A stretch of DNA of 44,488 nt, from the IMG/VR virus record IMGVR_UViG_3300033153_014439, positions 1 through 44,488 of that record. One strand, written 5' to 3'. The notes beneath the pieces were generated by a model. It made no database searches and had not been told where the DNA came from. It saw only the letters and a list, made by a program, of their open reading frames with translations. The translations under genes were made by a program, and so were the position numbers. Below are positions 1 to 44,488 of this stretch, in pieces. Position 1 is the stretch's first letter. Each line of letters starts with the position of its first letter. The DNA comes from a virus.

Positions 1-83
1 TCGATAATATCCTCGTGGCTGTCTGACCAGTCGAGATAGCGATTGTGGCGCCGAAGCGCGATGCCGCTGAATGACTTACACAT
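1..83 (-). CDS. Partial paralogue of the short protein at 648-953 (5' end only)
   Basis: The gene starts at ATG 83-81 behind a good AGGAGG site that lies in the end of the repeat gene 85-738. It runs off the left edge after 27 codons. The visible residues (MCKSFSGIALRRHNRYLDW, then SDSHEDII) match the N-terminus of the protein at 953-648 almost residue for residue, so this is a second copy of that gene. If the molecule is circular, its 3' part and the start of the second repeat gene lie in sequence missing between the two ends. Function unknown. Confidence 0.75.
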   Translation of the reverse strand, partial: MCKSFSGIALRRHNRYLDWSDSHEDII

Positions 84-84
84 T

Positions 85-738
85 TCACGCCTCCTTGCGG
101 TAATCATGCGCAATACGGGCTGAATCGCGCATGATAGCGATCTTGGCCGAATCGTACATGCGTTCGACGCGAGCCGAATCGCGCATGGTACTGACGCAGG
201 CCGAATCGTACATGGCCTCGATGTGGGTCCAACCGTACATGACGTCGATGTGGGCCGAATCGCACATGCCTTCGACGCGGGCCGAACCGCGCATGATCTT
301 GATGCGGGCCGACTCATACATGCTTTCGACATGGGCCGAATCGTGCATGGCCTCTACGCGGGCCGAATCGCACATGGTGCCGACGTGGGCCGAATCGCGC
401 GTGATAGCGATGTGGGTCGAATTGCGCATGATGTGGATGCGGGCCGAATCGCGCATGGTGCCGATGTAGGCCGAACCGTACATGGCGTTGATGCAGGCCG
501 AATCGTGCATGGCACCGACGCGGGCCGAATCGTACATGCTTTCGACGTGGGCCGAATCGCGCATGGTGCCGATGCGGGCCGAACCGCGCATGGCCTTGAT
601 GCGCGCTGAGCCATACATGCCGATAATGCGGGCGTTGACCGCACATTCTATTTCCGCGCCGTCCGCCAGAATCCAGGGGCCTCCGCCGAGTATCTTGCGC
701 TTGTCCGAGATGATGCAGTGGCTGACGCGTTCGGCCAT
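85..738 (-). CDS. Nonapeptide-repeat protein A, probable beta-solenoid
   Basis: This is a 217-residue protein. After about 40 unique residues (MAERVSHCIISDKRKILGGG then PWILADGAE) it consists of about 19 tandem 9-residue units of the pattern M-[YRHC]-[DGEN]-S-A-[RHCY]-[IV]-x-x, encoded by 27-bp units. It ends in a short tail DYRKEA. A 9-residue period with an alternating small and branched SA-x-I/V core suggests an 18-residue-per-turn beta-roll or solenoid; that is inference. There is no signal peptide, membrane segment or catalytic motif. It overlaps the 3' end of the preceding gene (648-953), and the next gene starts two bases after its stop. A second, frameshifted copy lies at 43799-44488. 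Because 27 is a multiple of 3 and the units lack stops, other frames are also open; this frame is chosen for its unique N-terminus and start and for the matching copy B. Confidence 0.85.
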   Translation of the reverse strand: MAERVSHCIISDKRKILGGGPWILADGAEIECAVNARIIGMYGSARIKAMRGSARIGTMRDSAHVESMYDSARVGAMHDSACINAMYGSAYIGTMRDSARIHIMRNSTHIAITRDSAHVGTMCDSARVEAMHDSAHVESMYESARIKIMRGSARVEGMCDSAHIDVMYGWTHIEAMYDSACVSTMRDSARVERMYDSAKIAIMRDSARIAHDYRKEA

Positions 739-953
739 TTGCGACTCGATTTCAACCTTGCGGTCAGATCGACGCGCAATTCGTATGACGCCGGATCGTC
801 GTAGCGGTCCTCGCGAGGGACATACTTATAGCGAACGATTTTCTCCGGGTCATCGGGCAAATCGAACCACTCGATAATATCCTCGTGGCTGTCGCTCCAG
901 TCGAGATGGCGATTGTGACGTTGCAAGGCAACGCCAGAGAACGGTGCGCCCAT
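648..953 (-). CDS. Short acidic protein preceding repeat protein A
   Basis: Starts at ATG 953 after an AAGGGGGA site. The first 60 residues are well formed (MGAPFSGVALQRHNRHLDW, then acidic DSHEDIIEWFDLPDDPEK). The last 30 residues overlap the start of the repeat gene in another frame and look like accidental coding. The true end may differ: upstream of the repeat gene's ATG 738 the repeat frame is also open (ending RKVEIESQ before the Met), so a frameshift fusing the two genes is possible but unproven. A paralogue starts at 83. No known family recognised. Confidence 0.6.
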   Translation of the reverse strand: MGAPFSGVALQRHNRHLDWSDSHEDIIEWFDLPDDPEKIVRYKYVPREDRYDDPASYELRVDLTARLKSSRKWPNASATASSRTSARYSAEAPGFWRTARK

Positions 954-1990: not shown

Positions 1991-2019
1991 AGCATATACC
2001 CGTCAGAAGCGCTTGTCAA
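1991..2019 (-). promoter_or_regulatory. Sigma70-type leftward promoter
   Basis: On the minus strand a perfect -35 box TTGACA (2019-2014) is followed by a 17-nt spacer and a -10 box TATGCT (1996-1991). It sits in the 235-nt gap between 2054 and 1818 and points at the genes 1818 to 85. A second TATAAT at 1980-1975 lacks a good -35 partner. The rest of this AT-richer gap shows no gene. A host vegetative sigma factor could read it, which fits early transcription. Confidence 0.7.
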
Positions 2020-2053: not shown

Positions 2054-2518
2054 CTATTTTGCCGCATCTGCGCTTGTATCCTCGTTGAAGACGGCGGCCT
2101 GGCTGCGCATCATGTTGAGAAACTTCGCGATCATTTCTGGCGACGGCAAGCGCTCACCTTGCGGCATCGCACCCGCCGGTAATGCGCTCATATCCGGCGG
2201 CTTGTCGCGCTCGCGCTCGCGTGCTTGCGCCGCATGGTCGCGCTTCCAGGACTCCCAAGCGCGGTACAGGTCGTTCAGGCTGAAGCGATGGGTGCGCGGT
2301 GTCGGCTCATAGCGTGGCAGAATTCCCTGTTTAACCCACCGCCGCAACGTTGGTGCGGAGATGTGGAGAAACTTGCAGGCCGTTTTGGTGTCAACGAACG
2401 CATCGGGGACGTAGTGAAAGACCCCGTTTTTTTCCTGCACGATCCAGGCCCCCTTGTACTTGGCAATGGCGGCGCAACGTAAGCGCCGCATGCCTACCAT
2501 GACTTCGCATTCGAGCAT
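2054..2518 (-). CDS. MerR/excisionase-type helix-turn-helix protein
   Basis: This is a 154-residue protein with a central winged-helix-like DNA-binding segment at about residues 40-85: VDTKTACKFLHISAPTLRRW, then VKQGILP and THRFSLNDLYRAW. That is the layout of MerR-family or excisionase (helix_turn_helix_17-like) domains, where the helix reads DNA and the R-F-S turn forms the wing. A charged helical C-terminus (RERERDKPPD onward) may serve for oligomerisation. The start at ATG 2518 has a modest TAGGA site. It lies immediately upstream of the promoter at 1991-2019 and downstream of the GH10 gene, so it may regulate this accessory segment. It could also be a packaging or recombination directionality protein; a regulator is the simplest reading. 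Confidence 0.6.
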   Translation of the reverse strand: MLECEVMVGMRRLRCAAIAKYKGAWIVQEKNGVFHYVPDAFVDTKTACKFLHISAPTLRRWVKQGILPRYEPTPRTHRFSLNDLYRAWESWKRDHAAQARERERDKPPDMSALPAGAMPQGERLPSPEMIAKFLNMMRSQAAVFNEDTSADAAK

Positions 2519-2608: not shown

Positions 2609-3637
2609 CTATGTTTTTTCAAAAAGTTGGCGCCACGCCGGTTTTGCACGTAACCGGGCGTCCGTCAAGCCGCCGCGGGGCATGACCGGCCAGACCGCCG
2701 CGTCGGTCAGCGTCCAGAACGTGATGCTGGTAGCGGCGGGATGGGCGCGGACGATTGCCAGCATGTCGCGATAGGCGAGAGCCTGGGCGGTTTCCGTCCA
2801 TGTTCCGAACGGCGCCAGGCCGAGCGTGGCACGCTCCCATTCCCGGCGATTACCGATGATGACCGGGCTGCCGTCACTGCGGAAGATATTTTCGGTGATG
2901 TGCGCCTGCAAGCCGGCGGCCTCGATTTCGTACAGCGTGCGTTCGACCTCTTCGCGCGTGTACCATCGGTGCCCGTGCGCCTGAACGCCTATCGTGTCTG
3001 CGCCGACAGCGCGTGCGTAATCGACAAGCGCACCCAAACAGCATCTGTCCGACTGGCCTTGTGGCGAATGGATTACGTCCCATTCGTTCACGGCGATTGC
3101 CGCGCCTGGCGTCAGTTCGCGCGCCGCTGCCACCATTTCGGCCACCAGCGTCGCCGGCTGCGCGAAATGAATCGGCTCATTCACTATATCCCAGGCGTAG
3201 GCTATATCGCCGAATTCGCGTGCGAGTTCTTCCACGTAGCCCACGGCCTTGTCACGCGGCGTTGCGCCCTGGGGGACACCCCAAAGCGGCGTGTGCAGGC
3301 GCAGCCGCTTGCGATACTCGCGGCAGTAGTTGGCTATGGCGTGCGCGTCGGCGGGGTTCGCATTGTAGTCGCGCCATTTAAGCGCATTACAGGGCGTAAT
3401 AGTATCGAACGCCAAAAGTCGCGGCCAAAGTGCGGGAAAAAGGTCGGTGCGGGATGGTGACGGGCACCCGCAGCCGATGAGCGTCTGGCCCGGGCGCGCC
3501 TGCTCGCGCAGGAGCGCCAGGGCCTCGGTATCAAGAGCCAGCGGATGCGCAGGGGGCGCATGGCGAGGCCACAGTCGCCCAAGTGCCCCCGCGCCGCATG
3601 CCGCAGCGCCGGTTGCCAGAAATTCGCGACGGTTCAT
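2609..3637 (-). CDS. GH10 family glycoside hydrolase (endo-xylanase-like) with Tat signal
   Basis: This is a 342-residue protein. Residues 1-20 (MNRREFLATGAAACGAGALG) form a twin-arginine signal, so the enzyme should be exported folded to the periplasm or beyond. The rest is a TIM barrel with GH10 hallmarks in order: NALKW (84-88, compare NEMKW), RLHTPLWG (113-120), the acid/base motif WDIVNEP (149-155, Glu154), IGVQAHGH (216-223), the nucleophile region ITENIF (247-252, Glu249, normally ITELD) and TFWTLTDAAVW (306-316). GH10 enzymes hydrolyse beta-1,4-xylan by a retaining mechanism. Length fits a single catalytic domain. Start ATG 3637 overlaps the upstream stop as ATGA. Such an enzyme is unusual in a phage leftward operon; substrate is inferred from family only and might be a host or environmental polysaccharide. 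Confidence 0.85.
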   Translation of the reverse strand: MNRREFLATGAAACGAGALGRLWPRHAPPAHPLALDTEALALLREQARPGQTLIGCGCPSPSRTDLFPALWPRLLAFDTITPCNALKWRDYNANPADAHAIANYCREYRKRLRLHTPLWGVPQGATPRDKAVGYVEELAREFGDIAYAWDIVNEPIHFAQPATLVAEMVAAARELTPGAAIAVNEWDVIHSPQGQSDRCCLGALVDYARAVGADTIGVQAHGHRWYTREEVERTLYEIEAAGLQAHITENIFRSDGSPVIIGNRREWERATLGLAPFGTWTETAQALAYRDMLAIVRAHPAATSITFWTLTDAAVWPVMPRGGLTDARLRAKPAWRQLFEKT

Positions 3638-3828
3638 GGTGCAAGCCCCTTGTGCTGTTGCCACTGCCGAAACGCGCCAGCCATGTACATATCGACCTGG
3701 CGTTTGCTATAGCCGATCTGGCGAAGTTTGATGGCGAATTCAGCCATTGTCGGCCGGTTGCCGTGCCTGTCCATCGGCCCTGGGCTGCCATAGAAGAGTT
3801 CAATGGTCGTGGGTTGTCGCGTCCCCAT
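3634..3828 (-). CDS. Unknown 64-aa protein upstream of the GH10 gene
   Basis: ATG 3828 has a GGGAGG site. The sequence MGTRQPTTIELFYGSPGPMD is followed by a helical region ending in a basic tail; YSKRQVDMYMAGAFRQW suggests a short helix pair. The stop overlaps the GH10 start (ATGA), so the two are probably coupled. No family recognised. Confidence 0.6.
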   Translation of the reverse strand: MGTRQPTTIELFYGSPGPMDRHGNRPTMAEFAIKLRQIGYSKRQVDMYMAGAFRQWQQHKGLAP

Positions 3829-23109: not shown

Positions 23110-23997
23110 ATGCCACATCCCGTAGAACCACGGCCTGTCGATATAGGCCGCTATGTCGGATACATGACCACGGTTATGCAATTGCGGCAGGCTCGCGAAC
23201 AATTTGAATTCGCAAAGCAGCGCGCAGCGGAACAGTCCGCGCTCGACTGGATGCGTATGCAGAACGCGCGGACTGCGCTCGAAATACAACAGGCCAATCT
23301 CGCTTTACGGCAACGCGAATTGGGGCAACGCCAGGCGGAGTTCCAGGCCGAGGCCCCACAACGCAAGGCCCAACTCCAATACACGCAAGCCCAAACCGCC
23401 AAGACGCAAGAGGCCATCGAGAATGAGCAGGAAATGGACGCGCTGCGTCCCGTACCCGAGGATTTACTTGACTATATCCACAGGGTTGGGGGCGCCGTCG
23501 AGAGCAATTATGAGCGCCAATATCCCGCCCTGCCGGGCGCACGGGGCGCGCACACTCTCGTGCATCGCGCCCGCAAGGAGGACATCATCAAGGCGCTGGA
23601 TGAGCGCCATCGCGACAAGCAACTTGCCTTGCGGGAAGGCGCGGCGGAGGAGAAAGGCCCTGCGCTGACAGCGCTGCAAAATGCGCAGTCGTATTTCGGG
23701 CAATATGCCGCCGCCGCTCGCCCGAAGGTGATGGAACACTTGGGCGAATTTGATGCCGCGCACCCCGAGGAATTCCACCGGCGTGTCCTCGATGCCGCCC
23801 AGTGGTACATGGACAACTACACCCGCAACGCCACGGCCGCAGGCGTTGATATGATACCCGACGCCTTCAAGGAATACATCGAGGAAATCCGCACCCTGTA
23901 TCCGGCCTACTACGGCTGGGTGCGCCAGCAATCCGGCGCCAAGGACCCCATGACCGTGCTCGCGGAGACGATTGCCGCGCGGGTCGCCAATGAGTAA
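23110..23997 (+). CDS. Internal virion (ejection) protein 2, coiled-coil
   Basis: 295 residues, strongly helical. Residues ~20-110 form a long Gln/Glu/Ala coiled coil (QLRQAREQFEFAKQRAAEQS, AEAPQRKAQLQYTQAQTAKT). The C-terminal half is globular helical (YFGQYAAAARPKVMEHLG). It lies between the glycine-rich protein and the giant ejection protein and overlaps the latter by 8 bp. Probably part of the ejected trans-envelope conduit. Confidence 0.6.
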   Translation: MPHPVEPRPVDIGRYVGYMTTVMQLRQAREQFEFAKQRAAEQSALDWMRMQNARTALEIQQANLALRQRELGQRQAEFQAEAPQRKAQLQYTQAQTAKTQEAIENEQEMDALRPVPEDLLDYIHRVGGAVESNYERQYPALPGARGAHTLVHRARKEDIIKALDERHRDKQLALREGAAEEKGPALTALQNAQSYFGQYAAAARPKVMEHLGEFDAAHPEEFHRRVLDAAQWYMDNYTRNATAAGVDMIPDAFKEYIEEIRTLYPAYYGWVRQQSGAKDPMTVLAETIAARVANE

Positions 23998-26900
23998 GTT
24001 CACCTTCACGCCGTTCGCCAGTGCCCCCGTCGCCGAATTCACCTTTACCGATTTCGGCGATACCGGGGGTTTTGTGTTTTCGGACTTGCCCTCAACGTAT
24101 AAGAGCCCCCCGTCCCCTGCCGCTGCCATTTGGCAAAAGGCGGTCGCGGAATCCCCCACCGTGCCCATGAGCGAAGCCCAGGCACGGCACGCCGCGCCGA
24201 TGTTGCCTGACGAACAGGCCGAGGGGGTAGCGACGGGGCGTGAAGCACTCGAAAAGTTGTACTTCTGGACGTTCAAGCAGGTTTTTCCGCAGCAAGCCCG
24301 CCGCGTCGAGGAAATCGCCGATGACCCGTCTGTCCTGCTCCAGCCGTGGAAGCGTGCGGCGGAAAACATGCGCGCGCGTGGGCGCAAGCCGATTTGGGAG
24401 CCGGGCCTGGACTGGGGCGCAATGGGCAACTGGCTCTGGCAGGGCGGCAAGGCCGTCTTGTCTACCTTTGGCGAAAACATCGGCCCGATACTCAAAGACG
24501 TGAATATCCCCGCGCGCGTGCTCGGCCCCATCGTCGAAGCCGTCGCGCAAACCGAAGAGCACGCACCGTACAGCAGCCCCGCGAACGAAGTGCTCTTGAT
24601 GCTGCAGAAATCGCCGGAAATCGCAAAGAAGGCGTGGGAGATATTCGTCGATGTGCAACTCAAGGACGGTGACGCCGACCTCGTGAAACAGGCCGTGGCC
24701 GCATACGTGGACAAGGGTGTCATTGAACCGGACAACGCGGGTTACCTTGCGGCGTTCTTCGGGGTCTTCTCCAATCCCGTCATCATGCACTCGGTGCTTA
24801 CGCGCGATCTTCCCGCGCTCGAACAGGCCATCAAGCGCCGGTTCCCGAACGCGATGGCCAAGATGCAGGCGCGCGCCTCGCTCATCGAAAAAGGCGTTGA
24901 CCTCGACAGCGGGTTTTCCATCCGCGCCGCGCTTTCCGGATGGCGAGGCAAACTGTCGCGCGGCGAACGCGCGTTCCTGAAATCGGAACTCGCCAAGTGG
25001 CAGGGCCGGTTCGGTATGGGCGTCAAAGGTCGCGGCTTTGAAATGATCGATGCGAACCGCTGGCAGGTCGAAAACGAAGCCCGCTGGTTGCAGGCGAAAC
25101 AACCGCGCGGCATGAGCGGTGTGGCGGGCTTCCCACACGAACGTCCGCCCCTTATGTCAGCCAGGCCGTTGATCAATATCGAGCGGCCTGCGCCACCGGA
25201 GATCCTGCCGGTGTCTGTGATTAAACAGGCCGCGCCGACTCCCGTACCCGCCACCCAATTCGAGCAGCCAGCGTGGTTTCAGCCGACGGGCCTCGTCGGC
25301 CCCGCCAAGGACATCATGGGGGCGGAGATTGTCGATGCTCTTGCCGTTACCGCCGAAGCGGACATGCTCGTAACGCGCGTGCCCCCCGTACCGGCAACGC
25401 TGGCGGAAACTCCCGGCGCGCCAGCCGCCCCTGAGGCAGATATTGAGGGGAAGCAACCGTGGGAGATGACGCGCGACGAGTTTCGCGCGTACTGTAGGCA
25501 GTCGCTCGCCGAGCGGGACTTGCCAGGTGCGCCAAACCAGGCAACAGCCGAAGCACACATTGCGAAACAATTAGAAGCATTTGATGTGGGCGCAATGGAT
25601 GATACCGTATGGCGATATCGTCGGGAACACATTCAACGTGCTCTCGCAGAAGGTAAACCCGTGCCTGCTGAAGTACTCGCGGATTATCCAGACTTGGCGC
25701 ACGGGGCCGAAGCCGAAGCGCCGGAGTCACCGACCGCACAGCGCGTGATTGCGGATGCCGAGGCCCACCTCAAGGCCCTCGACACGGCCGTCGCTAACGG
25801 CGAACACCTGCCCGCCCCGCCCGATTACCCTGATGACGAGCGCGCACCGGAACTCCCCGTCAAGTACGTCACAGTGCAACCGACCGAAGAGGGCGTCACC
25901 GCACGGCTTGCAAACATTGGGCCGGGCATTATCCGCAATCCGGTCGTCACGGATATCGTCAAGGAGACCGGTGCAGACCTGTACATCGAACGCACGCGCA
26001 ACCACGACAATCTCTACATCGTCAAGGAGGGCAAAATTGTCGCGGGCCTGCGGCGCGGTATGCGGGGATGGCGGCCCCGCATCGCCGGGCCGAATTACAA
26101 GGACGTGGCCGGGCAAACCTTTGCCATCGAGGGGATAGCCCCGGCGCGCGAAACGGACGGTGAGGCCATTGATGAACTCATGGCCGACTTGGCGTCAATG
26201 AAAATCCGCGACCTCGACGACGAGGTGACGAAGTTCTATGCGGGCCTACCGCCCGCAAGCGAACTGTGGGATGCCAAAACCGAATTCGTCAACTGGCTTG
26301 CGGGCATGGTGCCCCCCAACGGCTTGCGCACCAGAAGTGATATTGCCAACATGCAGATAGGTGCGCTCATGGGCGACATCTTCGGCGTACTGAACAAGCA
26401 TGAGTTCATGGCCGCGCGCGCACGCGACTACTGGGTTGGACAGTCCGAGCGGCTCCGCCACTATCTCAAACACCCGGCCCGGCTGAAGGGCAAACTCGCA
26501 AATATCTGGCGGGATACGCCGCTTACGGACGATGTGCGCATGGAGGTCTATCGCGGCGTCGAAGACCCCGACGCCCGCGACCTATCGGAATGGCAGCGCA
26601 AGGAAGCACGCAAATTCGCCGAACGCATGAACCGCTACTTCGAGATGGCGGTTGACGCCGGCCTCATGGACAGCGATTGGTTTCGCGACAATTACTTCTC
26701 ACACGTCATTGTCGGCTGGTCGCATGAACCGGGCGGTGAACCCATGCCCGCCAAGGAGTACGGGCGATACGCGCCGGGCTGGAAGAAAAAACAATTCTTT
26801 CAGCACCGCCGCCGTTTTGCCGGCACCATCGAAGAACTCGAAACGAACGGCGTCGAGCACACCGCCCCTGACGGCTCCTCCAAAACGCTGTACCCCATCT

Positions 26901-28870
26901 TCGTGAAAGACCCCGCCATCATCGAGCCGCTGTACGTGATGGCCCTGGGCCGCGGTATCGCCATGCAGTCGGTGATGAGCGGGCTGTACGGCCTGCCCAC
27001 CGCGACAGGCTACAACGGCGTGGTGAACAAAAACGTCTTTGCGTCCATGCCGGAAAACACGCGCGAGAAATATCGGCGGCTGGATATCGCTGGCTTGAGC
27101 AAGTGGCGCGTCATCGACAAGGAGCGCGATGCGGACGGCACGGTGCGCCTCATCAAACTCGCCGAACAGGAACTCTACATCAACAAGGAACTCTATGAGC
27201 CCCTCGCCCAACTTGCCAACGTGCCGATAGACGAGCCGCTGCCGATTGTGGGCAAGATATGGGGCAAGTTGGCCGCGCTTGCCAAGCGTGCCACGCTTTT
27301 CCTGACCCCCGTCCATTTTGCCACGCTTCTCTCGTATGCGCTCGTCGCGCCCAGCGGCTTCATGTTGCACCCGTTGCAGGTCGCCAATACGCTGGGTGAA
27401 TTCGGCTCGCTGTGGGAGCGCGACGATCCGGAACTCGTTGAAGCCGTCAACGCCGGCCTTCCCCTCCCCCAACTCGGTAACGCGGAAACGGAAATCCGTC
27501 GCGGGCTGATGCAGGCCGCCAATTTCAAGCAGGCCGCCGGTGTCATCTCGCAAGCCTTCAGGCGCTTTACCGAGACATGGGTTGGCAAGGGGCTGTATAA
27601 CACGTGGCGCACGCTCAAACTCCCGCTTGACGCCTGGGATTTCGTGCTTTTCGACCGCCTCCTCGGCTCCGCCACGTGGGAAAATTACAAGTACGCCCGC
27701 GATTTCTATCTCGACAAAGGCTATGACCGCAAGACCGCCGTGCGCATGGCCGTCGAGGAGGCGTCCACCTTCATGGGCGCGTTACAGAAGGTAATGACCT
27801 CGCGCAAAGGCAATTATTGGGCACGCCGCGCCTTTCTCGCGTCGTCCTTCCGCCGCGCCAATATCGACACGCTTGTCAAGGCTATCAGCGGCAAGGGCTA
27901 TGGCTGGAAGTTTCGGCCGGTGCAGGGCGCGGGCGGAACTGGCGAGGGCGGCGGCATGCGTCGCGAACCCACCGAACTACGCAAGTTGCAGAACCAGGTC
28001 GCGCGCCGCGCAATGGCGAAAATCCTCAAGGGCATCCTGTGGGCCATTATCGCAGCCGACATCCAAACCCTCGCCCATTACATGATGCGCTGGCGCGAAG
28101 AGGGCAAGCGACCCGACCCGAAGTACCTGTGGGACGCCCTCAAGCGCAACGCGCTGACGGGAGGCATCCACGTCTATACCACCGACTTCGACCGCGCCGG
28201 ACGCGGCCTGCGGCATGTCAACGTGGTCTTCCGGCCCATGACGGAACCCATCCGCTGGATGATTCGCTTCGGGCAACAGGCCGTCAGCATTCTCAACCCA
28301 TTCACGCGGGCGGCCGCCCAGTTGGCGGGCAACATTTTGGGTATCTCGCCTTCCGTTGACCCCAACCTGCCACCCAAGCGCCGCGCCATAGAAATGGCGA
28401 AGGAATTCCTTCGCAACACGACCTTCTACGGGCGCATGCCCTACGAACTCGGCGGCTCGAAAATCCCCCGCACGCCCAAAGAGCATTTCCTCATATGGGC
28501 GGGCATATATCCCAGCGCCTACGAGCCGCACAAGGCACTGCTCGACCCCTTGCGCGAAAAAGAGGCCCTGCTCGCCGCCGACCGCGCCGATGCGAGGCTT
28601 CGCGCATGGCGGCGGTGGTTGGAGGGCGATGACGCGGAAGCCATGAAACTGTTGCTGGCACAGTATCCGCCCAAGCGCGCCGCAGAAATCATGCGGGACT
28701 TCGGCAAGATGAGCCGCACGTGGTGGGCCTTCAGGCAGTTGCCCGCCGATATGCGCTTGCAATGGTTCATGCAGATGCCGCCCGAAGAACAAGACGCCTT
28801 TATGGAAGCCGTTGCGGAAGAAATGTTCATCCGCGCCGAACAGGAAGCCAAACTGCACGAGAAGCAATGA
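23990..28870 (+). CDS. Giant internal virion / ejection protein (1626 aa)
   Basis: Start ATG 23990, overlapping the gene before. The N-terminus has a short repeat (FTFTPFASAPVAEFTFTDFG). Residues ~490-570 carry a module seen in phage and plasmid polyvalent proteins: KQPWEMTRDEFRAYC ... ALAEGKPVPAEVLADYPDL. Its DNA (25540-25700) is visibly richer in AT and unlike neighbouring codon use, suggesting a recent insertion. Two hydrophobic stretches occur later (TLFLTPVHFATLLSYALVAP and KILKGILWAIIAADIQTLAH) and could span the host membrane. The rest is helical. No lytic transglycosylase or polymerase motif was recognised. It probably leaves the capsid with DNA. Ends in an ATGA overlap. Confidence 0.7.
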   Translation: MSKFTFTPFASAPVAEFTFTDFGDTGGFVFSDLPSTYKSPPSPAAAIWQKAVAESPTVPMSEAQARHAAPMLPDEQAEGVATGREALEKLYFWTFKQVFPQQARRVEEIADDPSVLLQPWKRAAENMRARGRKPIWEPGLDWGAMGNWLWQGGKAVLSTFGENIGPILKDVNIPARVLGPIVEAVAQTEEHAPYSSPANEVLLMLQKSPEIAKKAWEIFVDVQLKDGDADLVKQAVAAYVDKGVIEPDNAGYLAAFFGVFSNPVIMHSVLTRDLPALEQAIKRRFPNAMAKMQARASLIEKGVDLDSGFSIRAALSGWRGKLSRGERAFLKSELAKWQGRFGMGVKGRGFEMIDANRWQVENEARWLQAKQPRGMSGVAGFPHERPPLMSARPLINIERPAPPEILPVSVIKQAAPTPVPATQFEQPAWFQPTGLVGPAKDIMGAEIVDALAVTAEADMLVTRVPPVPATLAETPGAPAAPEADIEGKQPWEMTRDEFRAYCRQSLAERDLPGAPNQATAEAHIAKQLEAFDVGAMDDTVWRYRREHIQRALAEGKPVPAEVLADYPDLAHGAEAEAPESPTAQRVIADAEAHLKALDTAVANGEHLPAPPDYPDDERAPELPVKYVTVQPTEEGVTARLANIGPGIIRNPVVTDIVKETGADLYIERTRNHDNLYIVKEGKIVAGLRRGMRGWRPRIAGPNYKDVAGQTFAIEGIAPARETDGEAIDELMADLASMKIRDLDDEVTKFYAGLPPASELWDAKTEFVNWLAGMVPPNGLRTRSDIANMQIGALMGDIFGVLNKHEFMAARARDYWVGQSERLRHYLKHPARLKGKLANIWRDTPLTDDVRMEVYRGVEDPDARDLSEWQRKEARKFAERMNRYFEMAVDAGLMDSDWFRDNYFSHVIVGWSHEPGGEPMPAKEYGRYAPGWKKKQFFQHRRRFAGTIEELETNGVEHTAPDGSSKTLYPIFVKDPAIIEPLYVMALGRGIAMQSVMSGLYGLPTATGYNGVVNKNVFASMPENTREKYRRLDIAGLSKWRVIDKERDADGTVRLIKLAEQELYINKELYEPLAQLANVPIDEPLPIVGKIWGKLAALAKRATLFLTPVHFATLLSYALVAPSGFMLHPLQVANTLGEFGSLWERDDPELVEAVNAGLPLPQLGNAETEIRRGLMQAANFKQAAGVISQAFRRFTETWVGKGLYNTWRTLKLPLDAWDFVLFDRLLGSATWENYKYARDFYLDKGYDRKTAVRMAVEEASTFMGALQKVMTSRKGNYWARRAFLASSFRRANIDTLVKAISGKGYGWKFRPVQGAGGTGEGGGMRREPTELRKLQNQVARRAMAKILKGILWAIIAADIQTLAHYMMRWREEGKRPDPKYLWDALKRNALTGGIHVYTTDFDRAGRGLRHVNVVFRPMTEPIRWMIRFGQQAVSILNPFTRAAAQLAGNILGISPSVDPNLPPKRRAIEMAKEFLRNTTFYGRMPYELGGSKIPRTPKEHFLIWAGIYPSAYEPHKALLDPLREKEALLAADRADARLRAWRRWLEGDDAEAMKLLLAQYPPKRAAEIMRDFGKMSRTWWAFRQLPADMRLQWFMQMPPEEQDAFMEAVAEEMFIRAEQEAKLHEKQ

Positions 28871-40176: not shown

Positions 40177-40650
40177 CTAAAACGGAATCCCGTGCTCATC
40201 GTCCACGTCACTCCCGTCGCCGTGGCCCACCTCCCGCGCACGCGCCGCCTGCGCTTCGCGCTCTTGGGGTGATTCGCCTTCCCGCTCCAATTCCCGCTTC
40301 GCCCGGCGTTTCGCATCCTCCCACGACAGCCCCTCGCGCAGTTGGAGCAGGCACGCACGGGCGCATATCTGCGATTGCGTGGGGTCGGGGGGTTGCGGGC
40401 GTTCGGCCGGCTTTCGCTTCGTGAGATTGCGCTCGCGCTGGGCCTCCACGCAACGCGCATGCACGGCCGAGATGCTGGGATACTGCGCTTCGACCTCGAT
40501 GCTGATTTCTTTACGGCAGATATCGAGGTCGATATGCGCGAATCGGTCAATCCAGTCCTCCGCCAGCATCTTGCACTCGTCCTTGGTGAAACCCGTGCGA
40601 TGGCGGCGCTCGAAGCGCAGCAACTGGGCGAGCAGTTCGACTTTATCCAT
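40177..40650 (-). CDS. Helical protein with SSB-like C-terminal tip (157 aa)
   Basis: ATG 40650 overlaps the methyltransferase stop (TGATG). N-terminal helical domain (MDKVELLAQLLRFERRHRTG) resembles the loader/primosome partner proteins of phages; a Lys/Arg/Glu-rich helix follows and the chain ends GDGSDVDDEHGIPF. The acidic stretch plus I-P-F copies the docking tip of bacterial SSB, which recruits repair and replication enzymes. It may bind the same host partners. Confidence 0.55.
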   Translation of the reverse strand: MDKVELLAQLLRFERRHRTGFTKDECKMLAEDWIDRFAHIDLDICRKEISIEVEAQYPSISAVHARCVEAQRERNLTKRKPAERPQPPDPTQSQICARACLLQLREGLSWEDAKRRAKRELEREGESPQEREAQAARAREVGHGDGSDVDDEHGIPF

Positions 40651-41522
40651 CAGCCACCTCCGAAAGCACTCCACAAAGTGCAGAACGCATACGCTGCCTG
40701 TAGCGGCACCACTCCGTTGCCGAGCATGCGAATTCTGTCCACCGGCGGGGCCATCCCATCAGCCATTCCACGAAGCGCGGGTTCAAGCGACGGGTCGATT
40801 TCGAGGATTCGCCGCCACGCATTGAGGGCGTCGGGGCCTGGCGGAAAAAGGGGCAGTTCTGCACCATGTTCGGCAGGGCATCCATCGGTGTAAACTCGCC
40901 GCGCTGACTCGGACCCTTCGCATCGCGGCTCTTCGGCGTCGGCCAATGCGCGGCCAAATCTTCCAGTTTGTGCAATCCTCCCCCCGGCGTGCGCCGTCGG
41001 CCCTGAGGGCCCCCCGATGGTTGTTTCGGCGTCTGCTAGTACACCGAGGATGAACAGGCGTTCCCGCTTATGCGGTGCACCGATTTCCGCCGCCGTAAAG
41101 AGACCCGCCGCAACGTCGTAGCCCAGTCCTTCCAGTTCTCGGATGACTCGCTCGGCACCGAGAACAAGGTGCCCTGCGACATTCTCGAAGAAGCACGCAT
41201 TGGGGCGGCACTCGCCGACAATTCGCCTAATATCCGGCCAGAGATGCCGAGGGTCGCGCGCACCCTTGCGCTTACCAGCGCACGAAAATGGCTGGCAGGG
41301 ATAGCCTCCGGTAAGGAAGTCGATTCGGTTGGCAAGGGGGCTTGCGTCAAACGTCCGCAAATCCGCCCGAAATACACCGTCAGCCAGGACACCCTTTGCA
41401 ATCGCATCTTCCAGAACCGCAAGGCAGAATGCTTCCCTCTCCACGTAAGCGAGCCAGCGAATATCCCCAAGGGCAAGTTGGAGCCCGATGTCGAGGCCCC
41501 CACCTCCGGTGCAGAGTGACAA
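40650..41522 (-). CDS. DNA (cytosine-5) methyltransferase
   Basis: 290 residues from TTG 41522; an upstream non-ATG start in the same frame is possible because LTDDTFTG precedes the first motif. Motif I is SLCTGGGGLDIGL (2-14), motif IV GGYPCQPFS with Cys76, motif VI FFENVAGHL (112-118), motif VIII EIGAPHKRERLFILG (146-160) and motif X LGNGVVPLQAAYAF near the C-terminus. It transfers methyl from SAM to cytosine C5; target sequence unknown. No cognate nuclease is next to it, so it probably protects viral DNA from host restriction. Confidence 0.92.
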   Translation of the reverse strand: MSLCTGGGGLDIGLQLALGDIRWLAYVEREAFCLAVLEDAIAKGVLADGVFRADLRTFDASPLANRIDFLTGGYPCQPFSCAGKRKGARDPRHLWPDIRRIVGECRPNACFFENVAGHLVLGAERVIRELEGLGYDVAAGLFTAAEIGAPHKRERLFILGVLADAETTIGGPSGPTAHAGGRIAQTGRFGRALADAEEPRCEGSESARRVYTDGCPAEHGAELPLFPPGPDALNAWRRILEIDPSLEPALRGMADGMAPPVDRIRMLGNGVVPLQAAYAFCTLWSAFGGG

Positions 41523-42595: not shown

Positions 42596-43060
42596 TTAAA
42601 GCAAGTCGTCTATGTCGGCATCGGGTGCGCTGGCCTTCGGCGGTTTAGTGCCGCCGTTACGGCGTTGCGCGCCGTCATCCTCGGGGTCATCGGTCGTGAC
42701 GAGGTTGAACGCAAGCGCGCGGGCATACTTACGCGCACCGGTCGTCGCCTTGTAAACGGCCTTGTCCTGCTGGTCGATGCCTTCCCCTACTGCGCGTATC
42801 ACCACGCTGTCGCCGGATTCGTCGAAGATGTGCATTTCGAGCGTAAGAAATACGCGGTTCGGGTTGCGCTCATCGGGCGTGATGCTCACCACGGATTCGA
42901 AGACGTATAAGCCTTCGGCCTCAAGCGCGGGGCGGATTACGCGGTCGTAATCCTCCATGTTGGCGTAAGAATACCCGTGATGTTTGTTCTGGCCGCTTTT
43001 GCCGACGGCGCACATTGCGGCCTGTGCGCGTCCGAGTTTTGCGAATAGTTCCTTACTCAT
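42596..43060 (-). CDS. erf: ERF family single-strand annealing protein
   Basis: 154 residues from ATG 43060 with AAGGAG. ERF hallmarks: SKELFAKLGRAQAAMCAVG, a KNKHHGYSYANMEDYDRVIR-like strand (here SGQNKHHGYSYANMEDYD), TPDERNPNRVFLTLEMHIFD and the GTDKQDKAxYKAxTGARKYA-type segment (IDQQDKAVYKATTGARKYA). ERF proteins coat ssDNA and pair complementary strands. Acts with the RecE-like exonuclease that precedes it. Confidence 0.88.
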   Translation of the reverse strand: MSKELFAKLGRAQAAMCAVGKSGQNKHHGYSYANMEDYDRVIRPALEAEGLYVFESVVSITPDERNPNRVFLTLEMHIFDESGDSVVIRAVGEGIDQQDKAVYKATTGARKYARALAFNLVTTDDPEDDGAQRRNGGTKPPKASAPDADIDDLL

Positions 43061-43802
43061 TTTCATGCTCCTTTTCGTATCGTTCGTAAAGCCGGAGAAT
43101 CGTCTGATAATACTTGCGGCCGAAGGCTTCGCGTTCATGTGAGCACCGAAGGCGCCATGTGTTGTACTGTGGCGGCCGCGTCGATACACAAATCCATTCA
43201 AATGGCAAATACTTACCCGTGACCGCCGCAACGTTGTCGATGTAGAAGGCGGCGCGGGCGGCATAGTTGTATTGGACGATGCTGTCGATAAACTCGTCGC
43301 GGTCGATGCAGTGAGTGGTTTTGAGGTCGATAATTACGTCGTCGCACAGTATATCAAGGCGCGCTTTCGTCAGGGTGTGGTAACCCTCTACTTGGGTTCT
43401 AATGCATACTTCACGCTTTGAGGGGCGGCCCAACGCTTTGCGGATATCCTCGCACGCCATGATGCTCTTGTACATGGCGACGACTTCCGCCCATTCGGTC
43501 GGCTTGATGGGCTGTTTGCCCGTCTTGGCGGCTACTTGCGCGACAGCCTCGCGGCCTTCGCGCATGCGCAAATCGTAATTCGCGTCGAGTTTGACGTAGC
43601 GGGCGGCGGTGGCGTCCTTGCCCTCCAGCACCAAGCAGTGCAGGACGGAGGGTACTAGGCCCCGGCGTCCGAGGTTTTTGGGCTTGCCGCGCACCCAGGC
43701 CTCGAGGTCGGAAAACGACAGTGCGTCGCTGGCTTGGTATGCGTCGAAGGGTAGCCCCTCGTAAATCCCGGGCGTATTTTGGGTTGTTGTCGCAGTCGTC
43801 AT
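43053..43802 (-). CDS. RecE/exodeoxyribonuclease VIII-like exonuclease (PD-(D/E)XK)
   Basis: 249 residues. GIYEGLPFDAYQASDALSFS is the usual RecE-domain start. The LHCLVLE helix (54-60) follows, and the catalytic signature LTKARLDILCDDVIIDLKTT gives D150 and D159-x-K161. A late Q/Y-x-x-Q helix (DSIVQYNYAARAAFYI) completes the core. It resects DNA to make 3' single strands for ERF. ATG 43802 overlaps the repeat gene's stop. Confidence 0.88.
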   Translation of the reverse strand: MTTATTTQNTPGIYEGLPFDAYQASDALSFSDLEAWVRGKPKNLGRRGLVPSVLHCLVLEGKDATAARYVKLDANYDLRMREGREAVAQVAAKTGKQPIKPTEWAEVVAMYKSIMACEDIRKALGRPSKREVCIRTQVEGYHTLTKARLDILCDDVIIDLKTTHCIDRDEFIDSIVQYNYAARAAFYIDNVAAVTGKYLPFEWICVSTRPPQYNTWRLRCSHEREAFGRKYYQTILRLYERYEKEHENE

Positions 43803-44488
43803 GCGCCCTGCCCCGCGGAGAGGGCCGAATCGTGCATGGTTTCGACGCCAACTGAATCGCGCATGATAGCGATCTCGGCCGAATCGTGCATGGTGCCGAT
43901 GCGGGCCGAATCGCGCATGGTACCGATGCGGGCCGAATCGCACATCCTTTCGACGTGAGCCGAATGGTGCATGGTATCAACGCGAGTCGATTCGTACATG
44001 ACACCGATGTGGGTCCAACCGTACATGCTTTCGACATGGGCCGAATCGTGCATGGCCTCTACGCCGGCTGAATGGTGCATGGCATCGACGCGGGCCGAAC
44101 CGTGCATGAGCCTGATGCGGGCCGACTCATACATGCCTTCGACGCGAGCCGAATCGTACATGCTTTCGATGCAGGCCGACTCGTGCATGGTGCCGATGTA
44201 GACCGAATCCCACATGGTACCGACGCAGGCCGAATCGCGCATGTGCCGATGCGGGCCGAATCGCGCATGGTGCCGATGTGGGCCGAACCGTACATGCTTT
44301 CGACGTGGGCCGAATCGTGCATGGCACCGACGCTGGCCGAGCCGCACATGGCCTTGATGCGGGCTGAACCGTACATACCGATAATGCGGGCATTGATCGC
44401 GTATTTCACCTCCGCGCCGTCCGCCAGAATCCAGGGGCCTCCGCCGAGTATCTTGCGCTTGTCCGAGATGATGCAGTGGCTGACGCGT
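43799..44488 (-). pseudogene. Nonapeptide-repeat protein B, frameshifted and cut by the window edge
   Basis: Second copy of the repeat gene: about 21 units of M-[YRHCW]-[DGEH]-S-A-x-[IV]-x-x. The N-terminus (RVSHCIISDKRKILGGGPWI) is identical in sequence to copy A at the edge. One G is missing at 44243-44244 (ATGTGCC for ATGGTGCC), so the downstream 15 units are in another frame than the upstream part. The stop at 43799 overlaps the exonuclease start. It may be a real phase-off state, a pseudogene or a sequencing slip. Confidence 0.75.

Follow-up and report, generated by a model that had tools for sequence, protein, structure and literature searches.

An apparently split and duplicated phage gene with a nine-residue repeat array, and its family of head-plus-module proteins

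The virus record IMGVR_UViG_3300033153_014439, whose 44,488 bases, classed as linear, constitute the window of this analysis, carries on its minus strand a repeat gene, B (85..738), an upstream open reading frame (ORF) for a head domain, A, and a second copy of both, A′-B′. B encodes 217 residues, comprising a linker (residues 1-40) and, beginning at residue 41, an array of 19 consecutive nine-residue units (106..618, minus strand). Identity of B to itself reaches 0.389 at lag 9, compared with at most 0.159 across 10,000 shuffles, and peaks again at lags 18, 27, and 36. The 19 units and the overall motif of a preliminary description, M-x-[DG]-S-A-x-[IV]-x-x, are thus borne out, with position 2 now refined to give M-[YRHC]-[DG]-S-A-x-[IV]-x-x; positions 1 (M), 4 (S), 5 (A), and 7 (I/V) are kept within the array, and positions 2, 3, 6, 8, and 9 are variable. 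An opposite or shifted coding frame was ruled out, as a family profile made without the window sequence picks B's frame (E 5e-31), and the repeat frame is hence the translated one. Pentapeptide repeats have a five-residue period of the form A(D/N)LXX; the identity of B at lag 5 is 0.085, as opposed to the lag-9 value given above, and B has no Pfam match. The RTX nonapeptide calcium motif is GGxGxDxUx; GGxGxD is absent from the units of B, and no hemolysin-type repeat appears among its Pfam matches up to E 10. The DUF7666 domain likewise has no Pfam match in B or A.

The sole phage record matching B by tblastn is Dulem virus 35, in whose protein XCD05138.1 the B-like units are preceded by a domain of about 95 residues that B is without, and it is this domain that A (648..953, minus strand) resembles, with homology over about 747-953 and none in its final ~30 codons. 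A head profile made from 25 relatives, window excluded, ranks A first (E 2.5e-5) and A′ second (E 0.0039) among 830 window ORFs, and A outscores 2,000 shuffled versions of itself with that profile. The full-length family profile returns, besides B at 5e-31, the two pieces of B′ at 3.5e-28 and 1.5e-10 and A at 8e-4; A′ is weaker, at 0.055, under the inclusion line. B is in the -1 frame relative to A, the two overlap by about 90 bases, and the linker homology picks up again in B after A, so that head and module, joined in one chain elsewhere, occupy overlapping but different frames in the window. From sequence comparison, A and B together appear to be a split version of a protein normally made as one chain, an approximately 95-residue head followed by a C-terminal module. 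What had been taken for a unique N-terminus of B is really the linker that follows a head domain encoded upstream in another frame. The proposal of an undescribed family likewise needs amendment, in that B makes up the C-terminal half of the proteins of a head-plus-module family and is not a family alone, and its repeat class is not wholly unknown, having weak likenesses in YdhT and in a DUF7666-headed protein discussed below. A programmed -1 frameshift joining A and B was also considered; the overlap holds no canonical slippery heptamer.

The two tandem paralogues proposed earlier were recovered, with the second copy located at the window's far end. B′, of about 21 units, spans 43802..44488 (minus strand), where a one-base shift near 44243 breaks the frame and leaves two pieces, 44245-44487 and 43802-44242, and the start of the second head, A′ (MCKSFSG...DSHEDII; 1..83, minus strand), is truncated by the window start. 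The opening 23 bases of the window are repeated at 871 and the closing 60 at 671. A′-B′ would therefore come after B when the contig ends are joined, leaving a gap of about 140 unassembled bases provided that A′ matches A in length. The same layout is seen in a relative, contig 3300037104_000240, which has a full head at 404-697, a second head start at 6-92, and the remaining head part at 40681-40788. A second phage with tandem head-module genes that span contig ends is represented by the contig of loci L095 and L114, where the arrays are of SGG type and differ between the copies.

The architecture and the family to which A and B belong are observed well beyond this window. Scans of viral contigs gave 25, 25, and 71 loci, which overlap, the final set being 71 loci on 70 contigs; a scan of genome contigs added 9 loci, 8 of them with the head, in Clostridia-type records where named, and L043, which shows no head, was excluded. 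The head, of about 95 residues, is marked by an SHxD motif and by FVR-E--P--W---VDQD--P-W, and sequence searches of Pfam, PHROG, and PDB returned nothing significant for it. What follows it varies: by motif calls, 35 of the 71 head loci carry a solenoid of eight- or nine-residue units, 15 end in GVRP[FI] (CLec type), seven have leucine-rich-repeat (LRR)-like modules, five GGTV, three SGG/HGG, one an Ala-rich module, and two others, with the remaining three loci cut or broken. The module of L059 consists of MORN repeats, and Pfam finds DUF6273 in both of the two GVRPF members scanned, L022 (2e-5, over the cut-off) and L017 (E 0.0034, under it). LRR-like repeats such as GCTSLTSLKADAA are borne by the same head in L101, L105, L106, L117, L118, L120, and L125. 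The solenoid, lectin-like, and other modules thus look, judged by their sequences, like interchangeable C-terminal parts on one constant head. The head genes of 16 of the 71 loci run off a contig end; assemblies are probably broken by near-identical units, and unit counts from short reads are therefore risky. Against 397 genomes of one family, the full profile gave 10 matches at E 0.001, four of them between 1e-4 and 1e-3; most matched the repeat part alone, and none besides the already known L040 genome was counted as a member. Peptide patterns of B and A in viral contigs, a degenerate DNA pattern for GGPW..DGA, and megablast of window positions 1-25000 turned up no near homologue of the window genes, and tblastn of phages and plasmids with the window genes returned distant matches only. 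PADLOC gave no match for six proteins other than the reverse transcriptase (RT), and a literature search of limited reach met no description of phage arrays of this kind.

The solenoid suggested by the preliminary description is also what structure prediction returns. The AlphaFold2 model of B, computed with 12 sequences, is a beta-solenoid with one strand per nine-residue unit (mean predicted local distance difference test score, pLDDT, 85.9; predicted template modelling score, pTM, 0.82), with low confidence at residues 109-113 and 162-167, and a disordered chain was not predicted. In this model, unit positions 6-9 and 1 form strand, positions 3-5 form turn, and position 2 is mostly turn; an 18-residue coil, as first proposed, would fit such an arrangement, with two strands per 18 residues. 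The one-chain relative L033 is modeled as a mixed head and a solenoid (pLDDT 90.8, pTM 0.85). No significant match was found by PDB sequence search or by Foldseek (none at E 0.001). Two VIA-align comparisons recover the common solenoid arrangement, with antigen 43 giving the best Z score in each (14.5 and 10.4), and the matches include adhesins and tailspikes, MfpA in the first comparison (rank 25, Z 10.3, 2.9 Å over 151), and an RTX block in the second (rank 11, Z 8.2, 3.4 Å over 128). RTX beta-rolls and pentapeptide solenoids are the right kind of fold for B, with which they share no common sequence motif and no Pfam match.

It is in the relatives that the arrays are most informative about how they change, since in many of them the units are base-identical save in their second, third, and final codons. 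For the comparison of nonsynonymous and synonymous differences per site (pN and pS), arrays were trimmed of their first and last units and required to retain at least four; L116, L158, L091, L135, L114, and L129 were dropped as near copies or cut, and the unit motif constrained positions 3-5 and 7, leaving 1, 2, 6, and the last free. Over the 24 trimmed arrays, mean pN is 0.238 at codons 2-3, 0.278 at the last codon, and 0.021 elsewhere, and mean pS is 0.027. In all 24 of these arrays pS is lower than pN at codons 2-3, about nine-fold on average, and 13 of the 24 have zero synonymous differences; in a set of 11 arrays, the count is 58 to 6 (p 0.002). Because codons 1, 6, and (in nine-residue units) 8, equally unconstrained by the motif, have a pN that stays near zero, the pattern at the three variable codons is not produced by the motif. 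Comparison of unit number among relatives, which the preliminary description had proposed, reveals whole-unit differences: L115 and L116 differ by six units (162 bases) with aligned blocks 99.2-99.96% identical, and L090 and L091 by two units (48 bases) at 99.97% identity. The heads of L012 and L014 are 91% identical in residues, and their arrays have 11 and 6 units, respectively. For the window itself, where no near-identical genome was found, the comparison is between the two paralogues alone, with 19 units in B and about 21 in B′.

A second mode of variation operates on the same head. In L017, a head-CLec gene is followed by a small ORF, a template repeat, and an RT, the order of a diversity-generating retroelement (DGR), and mismatches between template and variable repeats fall at template A in 13 of 18 cases; the corresponding counts are 15/18 in each of L018, L019, and L020, 13/14 in L022, 8/9 in L023, and 14/15 in L024, and for L026 no template repeat was found within the locus. 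In 20 chosen records, some incomplete, an RT is present in 4/4 of CLec type and 0/16 of solenoid type, the window among the latter, where PF00078 detects none and B accordingly does not qualify as a DGR target. The DGR relatives alter the C-terminal end of the protein, the same end that bears the solenoid arrays. These relatives, and the many changes between A and G in the middle base of codons 2 and 3 (TAC/TGC, GAC/GGC), bring to mind a targeted mutator that acts on fixed codons, rather than selection among random mutants, as the maker of the variation in the solenoid arrays. We consider such a mutator very improbable, given the lack of an RT in all 16 solenoid-type records and the transversions by which other arrays vary (ATG/TGG/AGG in L034).

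The surroundings of these genes bear on where their products act. Directly downstream of B′ lies a PDDEXK-like exonuclease (DUF3799; 43053..43796, minus strand; Pfam E 1.7e-11), followed by an ERF-type single-strand annealing protein (42596..43066, minus strand; Pfam E 1.7e-14) and, beyond these, by a C5 cytosine methylase of the early cluster (40650-41522, minus strand). At the head of this leftward gene cluster is a helix-turn-helix protein (HTH_17; 2054..2518, minus strand; Pfam E 5.3e-8), and a promoter-like site at 1991..2019 (minus strand) faces A-B-A′-B′, its consensus being matched at a chance rate (2 found, 1.3 expected). The terminase, portal, and capsid genes are on the opposite strand at 7.8-13.9 kb. 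Recombination, antirepressor, and replication families surround the relatives, with Sak4, exonuclease, and antirepressor the most frequent of 44 neighbours, and the gene of Dulem virus 35 sits in an early operon, flanked by a repressor gene and by AAA/helicase genes. As the neighbours are recombination, repressor, and replication genes and the structural genes are distant, gene content speaks for an early, intracellular head-plus-module protein, and the early location itself is an observation. A virion protein, whether for receptor binding or decoration, whose solenoid or lectin contacts the host surface, is the contrasting possibility: tailspikes are often solenoids and, like adhesins, are among the VIA-align matches, and the DUF6273 CLec domains of DGR cassettes are proposed as receptor binders (PMC10743442, PMC11792537). 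That role seems improbable to us for a gene that in the window shares its early cluster with an exonuclease and ERF, far from the structural genes, that in Dulem virus 35 is separated from the tail genes by over 7 kb, and that has no structural family among the neighbour families listed (25 of 96).

Taken together, these lines of evidence make it reasonably probable that A-B and A′-B′ are a split, duplicated member of an early phage family that combines a constant head with a swappable recognition module, here a self-diversifying array. Each unit would contribute one strand and one turn, the latter displaying the x-[DG] pair at the surface, where positions 2, 3, and the last would be exposed; recombination would add, remove, and homogenise units, with selection keeping these three positions diverse. 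The array could in this way confront an opponent or a host partner within the infected cell with a binding surface that keeps shifting; this partner may itself be variable, for instance a host defence or a factor of a rival phage, and the head would relay the recognition to a second partner that stays constant. Modules that diversify along two unrelated routes, in every case at the C-terminus of a conserved head, are best explained if what they recognise itself changes. A broader idea, which we regard as possible but doubtful, is that phages carry an intracellular, anticipatory form of recognition, in which a constant head accepts plug-in modules (solenoid arrays, DGR lectins, LRRs, MORN) in the manner of immune sensors or antibody libraries, with the array acting as a code held in each unit's variable pair.

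Several observations weigh against a diversifying recognition array, particularly for the window copies. Both are interrupted in frame, and A is without Cys2, Glu46, and Trp61, head residues kept by most relatives, as well as the head portion past Val-Asp, so that A-B and A′-B′ may be decaying or may function as two chains. The window arrays are older than those of the relatives, with pS of 0.28-0.29 and pN of 0.340-0.375 at codons 2-3 and 0.51-0.52 at codons 6, 8, and 9. The excess of amino-acid change over pS at the variable codons of B is 0.167, with a 95% interval of -0.014 to 0.303 that spans zero; that of B′ is secure (95% 0.027 to 0.269). The evidence for diversification consequently rests on the relatives, where both unit-number change and the excess at three codons are observed, and is weaker for the window copies. 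Even there, arrays share ancestry, and 24 of 24 is therefore not 24 independent events; with edge units included, 25 arrays give a pooled synonymous/nonsynonymous count of 179 to 42 that is not significant (p 0.11), and a subset of "young arrays" among the 25, significant but picked post hoc, was not relied upon. The broken frames, the pooled count, and the closeness in B of pS (0.281) to pN at codons 2-3 (0.340) are what a relaxed or decaying repeat would predict, its surface positions unconstrained, its units homogenised by slippage without any role in recognition, and the window copies pseudogenes. Free drift would not, however, yield the roughly nine-fold excess at codons 2-3 in every relative's trimmed array, and the structural codons 1, 4, and 5 are still held in the window (pN 0.058 and 0.078), which makes decay, in our judgment, unlikely. 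The diversifying surface first suggested for the two paralogues is thus supported by the arrays of the relatives, with the two window copies giving a mixed answer.

The adjacent variable pair also invites comparison with transcription activator-like (TAL) effectors, bacterial effectors whose near-identical units, of 34 residues and helical, differ at two adjacent residues that form a DNA code. The phage units share the adjacent pair and differ from TAL repeats in unit length, fold, and DNA code. A nucleic-acid binder with such a per-unit code, with the pair reading a base or short motif and the head operating on DNA or on transcription, would suit the early location by recombination and repressor genes as well as the resemblance of the pair to the TAL repeat-variable di-residues. 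It has little probability in our estimation, as the residue pairs seen (among them YG, CD, WG, RD, MD, LD, KG) give no simple four-way code and the head also bears LRR-like and lectin modules, which argues for protein or glycan recognition.

Among described systems, the mode of variation seems nearest, by analogy, to that of the high internal conservation (HIC) WD40 arrays of fungal HNWD NOD-like receptors (NLRs), which combine near-identical units maintained by concerted evolution with length polymorphism and a few hypervariable sites under diversifying selection (PMC12222747). Homogenised units, varying length, and few hypervariable sites, which on the phage side are seen in the relatives, and a recognition role, proposed in the phage case, are common to both, whereas the phage arrays are phage-encoded, are built of 8-9-residue beta-solenoid units instead of WD40 blades, are attached to an unrelated head, and would bind a ligand that we infer. 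Some members of the head family are themselves DGR variable proteins with DUF6273/CLec (PMC10743442, PMC11792537); unlike these, the window genes and the other solenoid members examined are without an RT and vary by unit number and at three codons per unit. A similar short repeat occurs in Escherichia coli YdhT (NF007410/PRK09946), which B matches over residues 97-209 (E 2.4e-5), although at 24.1 bits against a curated cut-off of 300 and with the head outside the match. A weak likeness also links B to the Roseomonas mucosa plasmid protein WP_168550275 (L006:2626-3588), whose 12 units have the same nine-residue length and vary at codons 2, 3, and 5 alone, never synonymously; its DUF7666 head differs from the family head, and the habit of variation is the same. 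If the recognition-module interpretation is true, phages possess a counterpart of the fungal NLR arrays, homogenised by recombination yet diverse at contact positions. Since DGR lectins carry the same head, a single protein family allows comparison of two ways of generating diversity; the constant partner of a head without database matches becomes a concrete experimental target, and solenoids with defined variable sites could be used as small binders.

Elsewhere in the window, a 1632-residue ORF without a PHROG match occupies 23972-28870 (plus strand), and a glycosyl hydrolase family 10 protein with a twin-arginine signal, possibly a host-benefit gene, is encoded at 2609-3664 (minus strand; Pfam E 1.7e-19).
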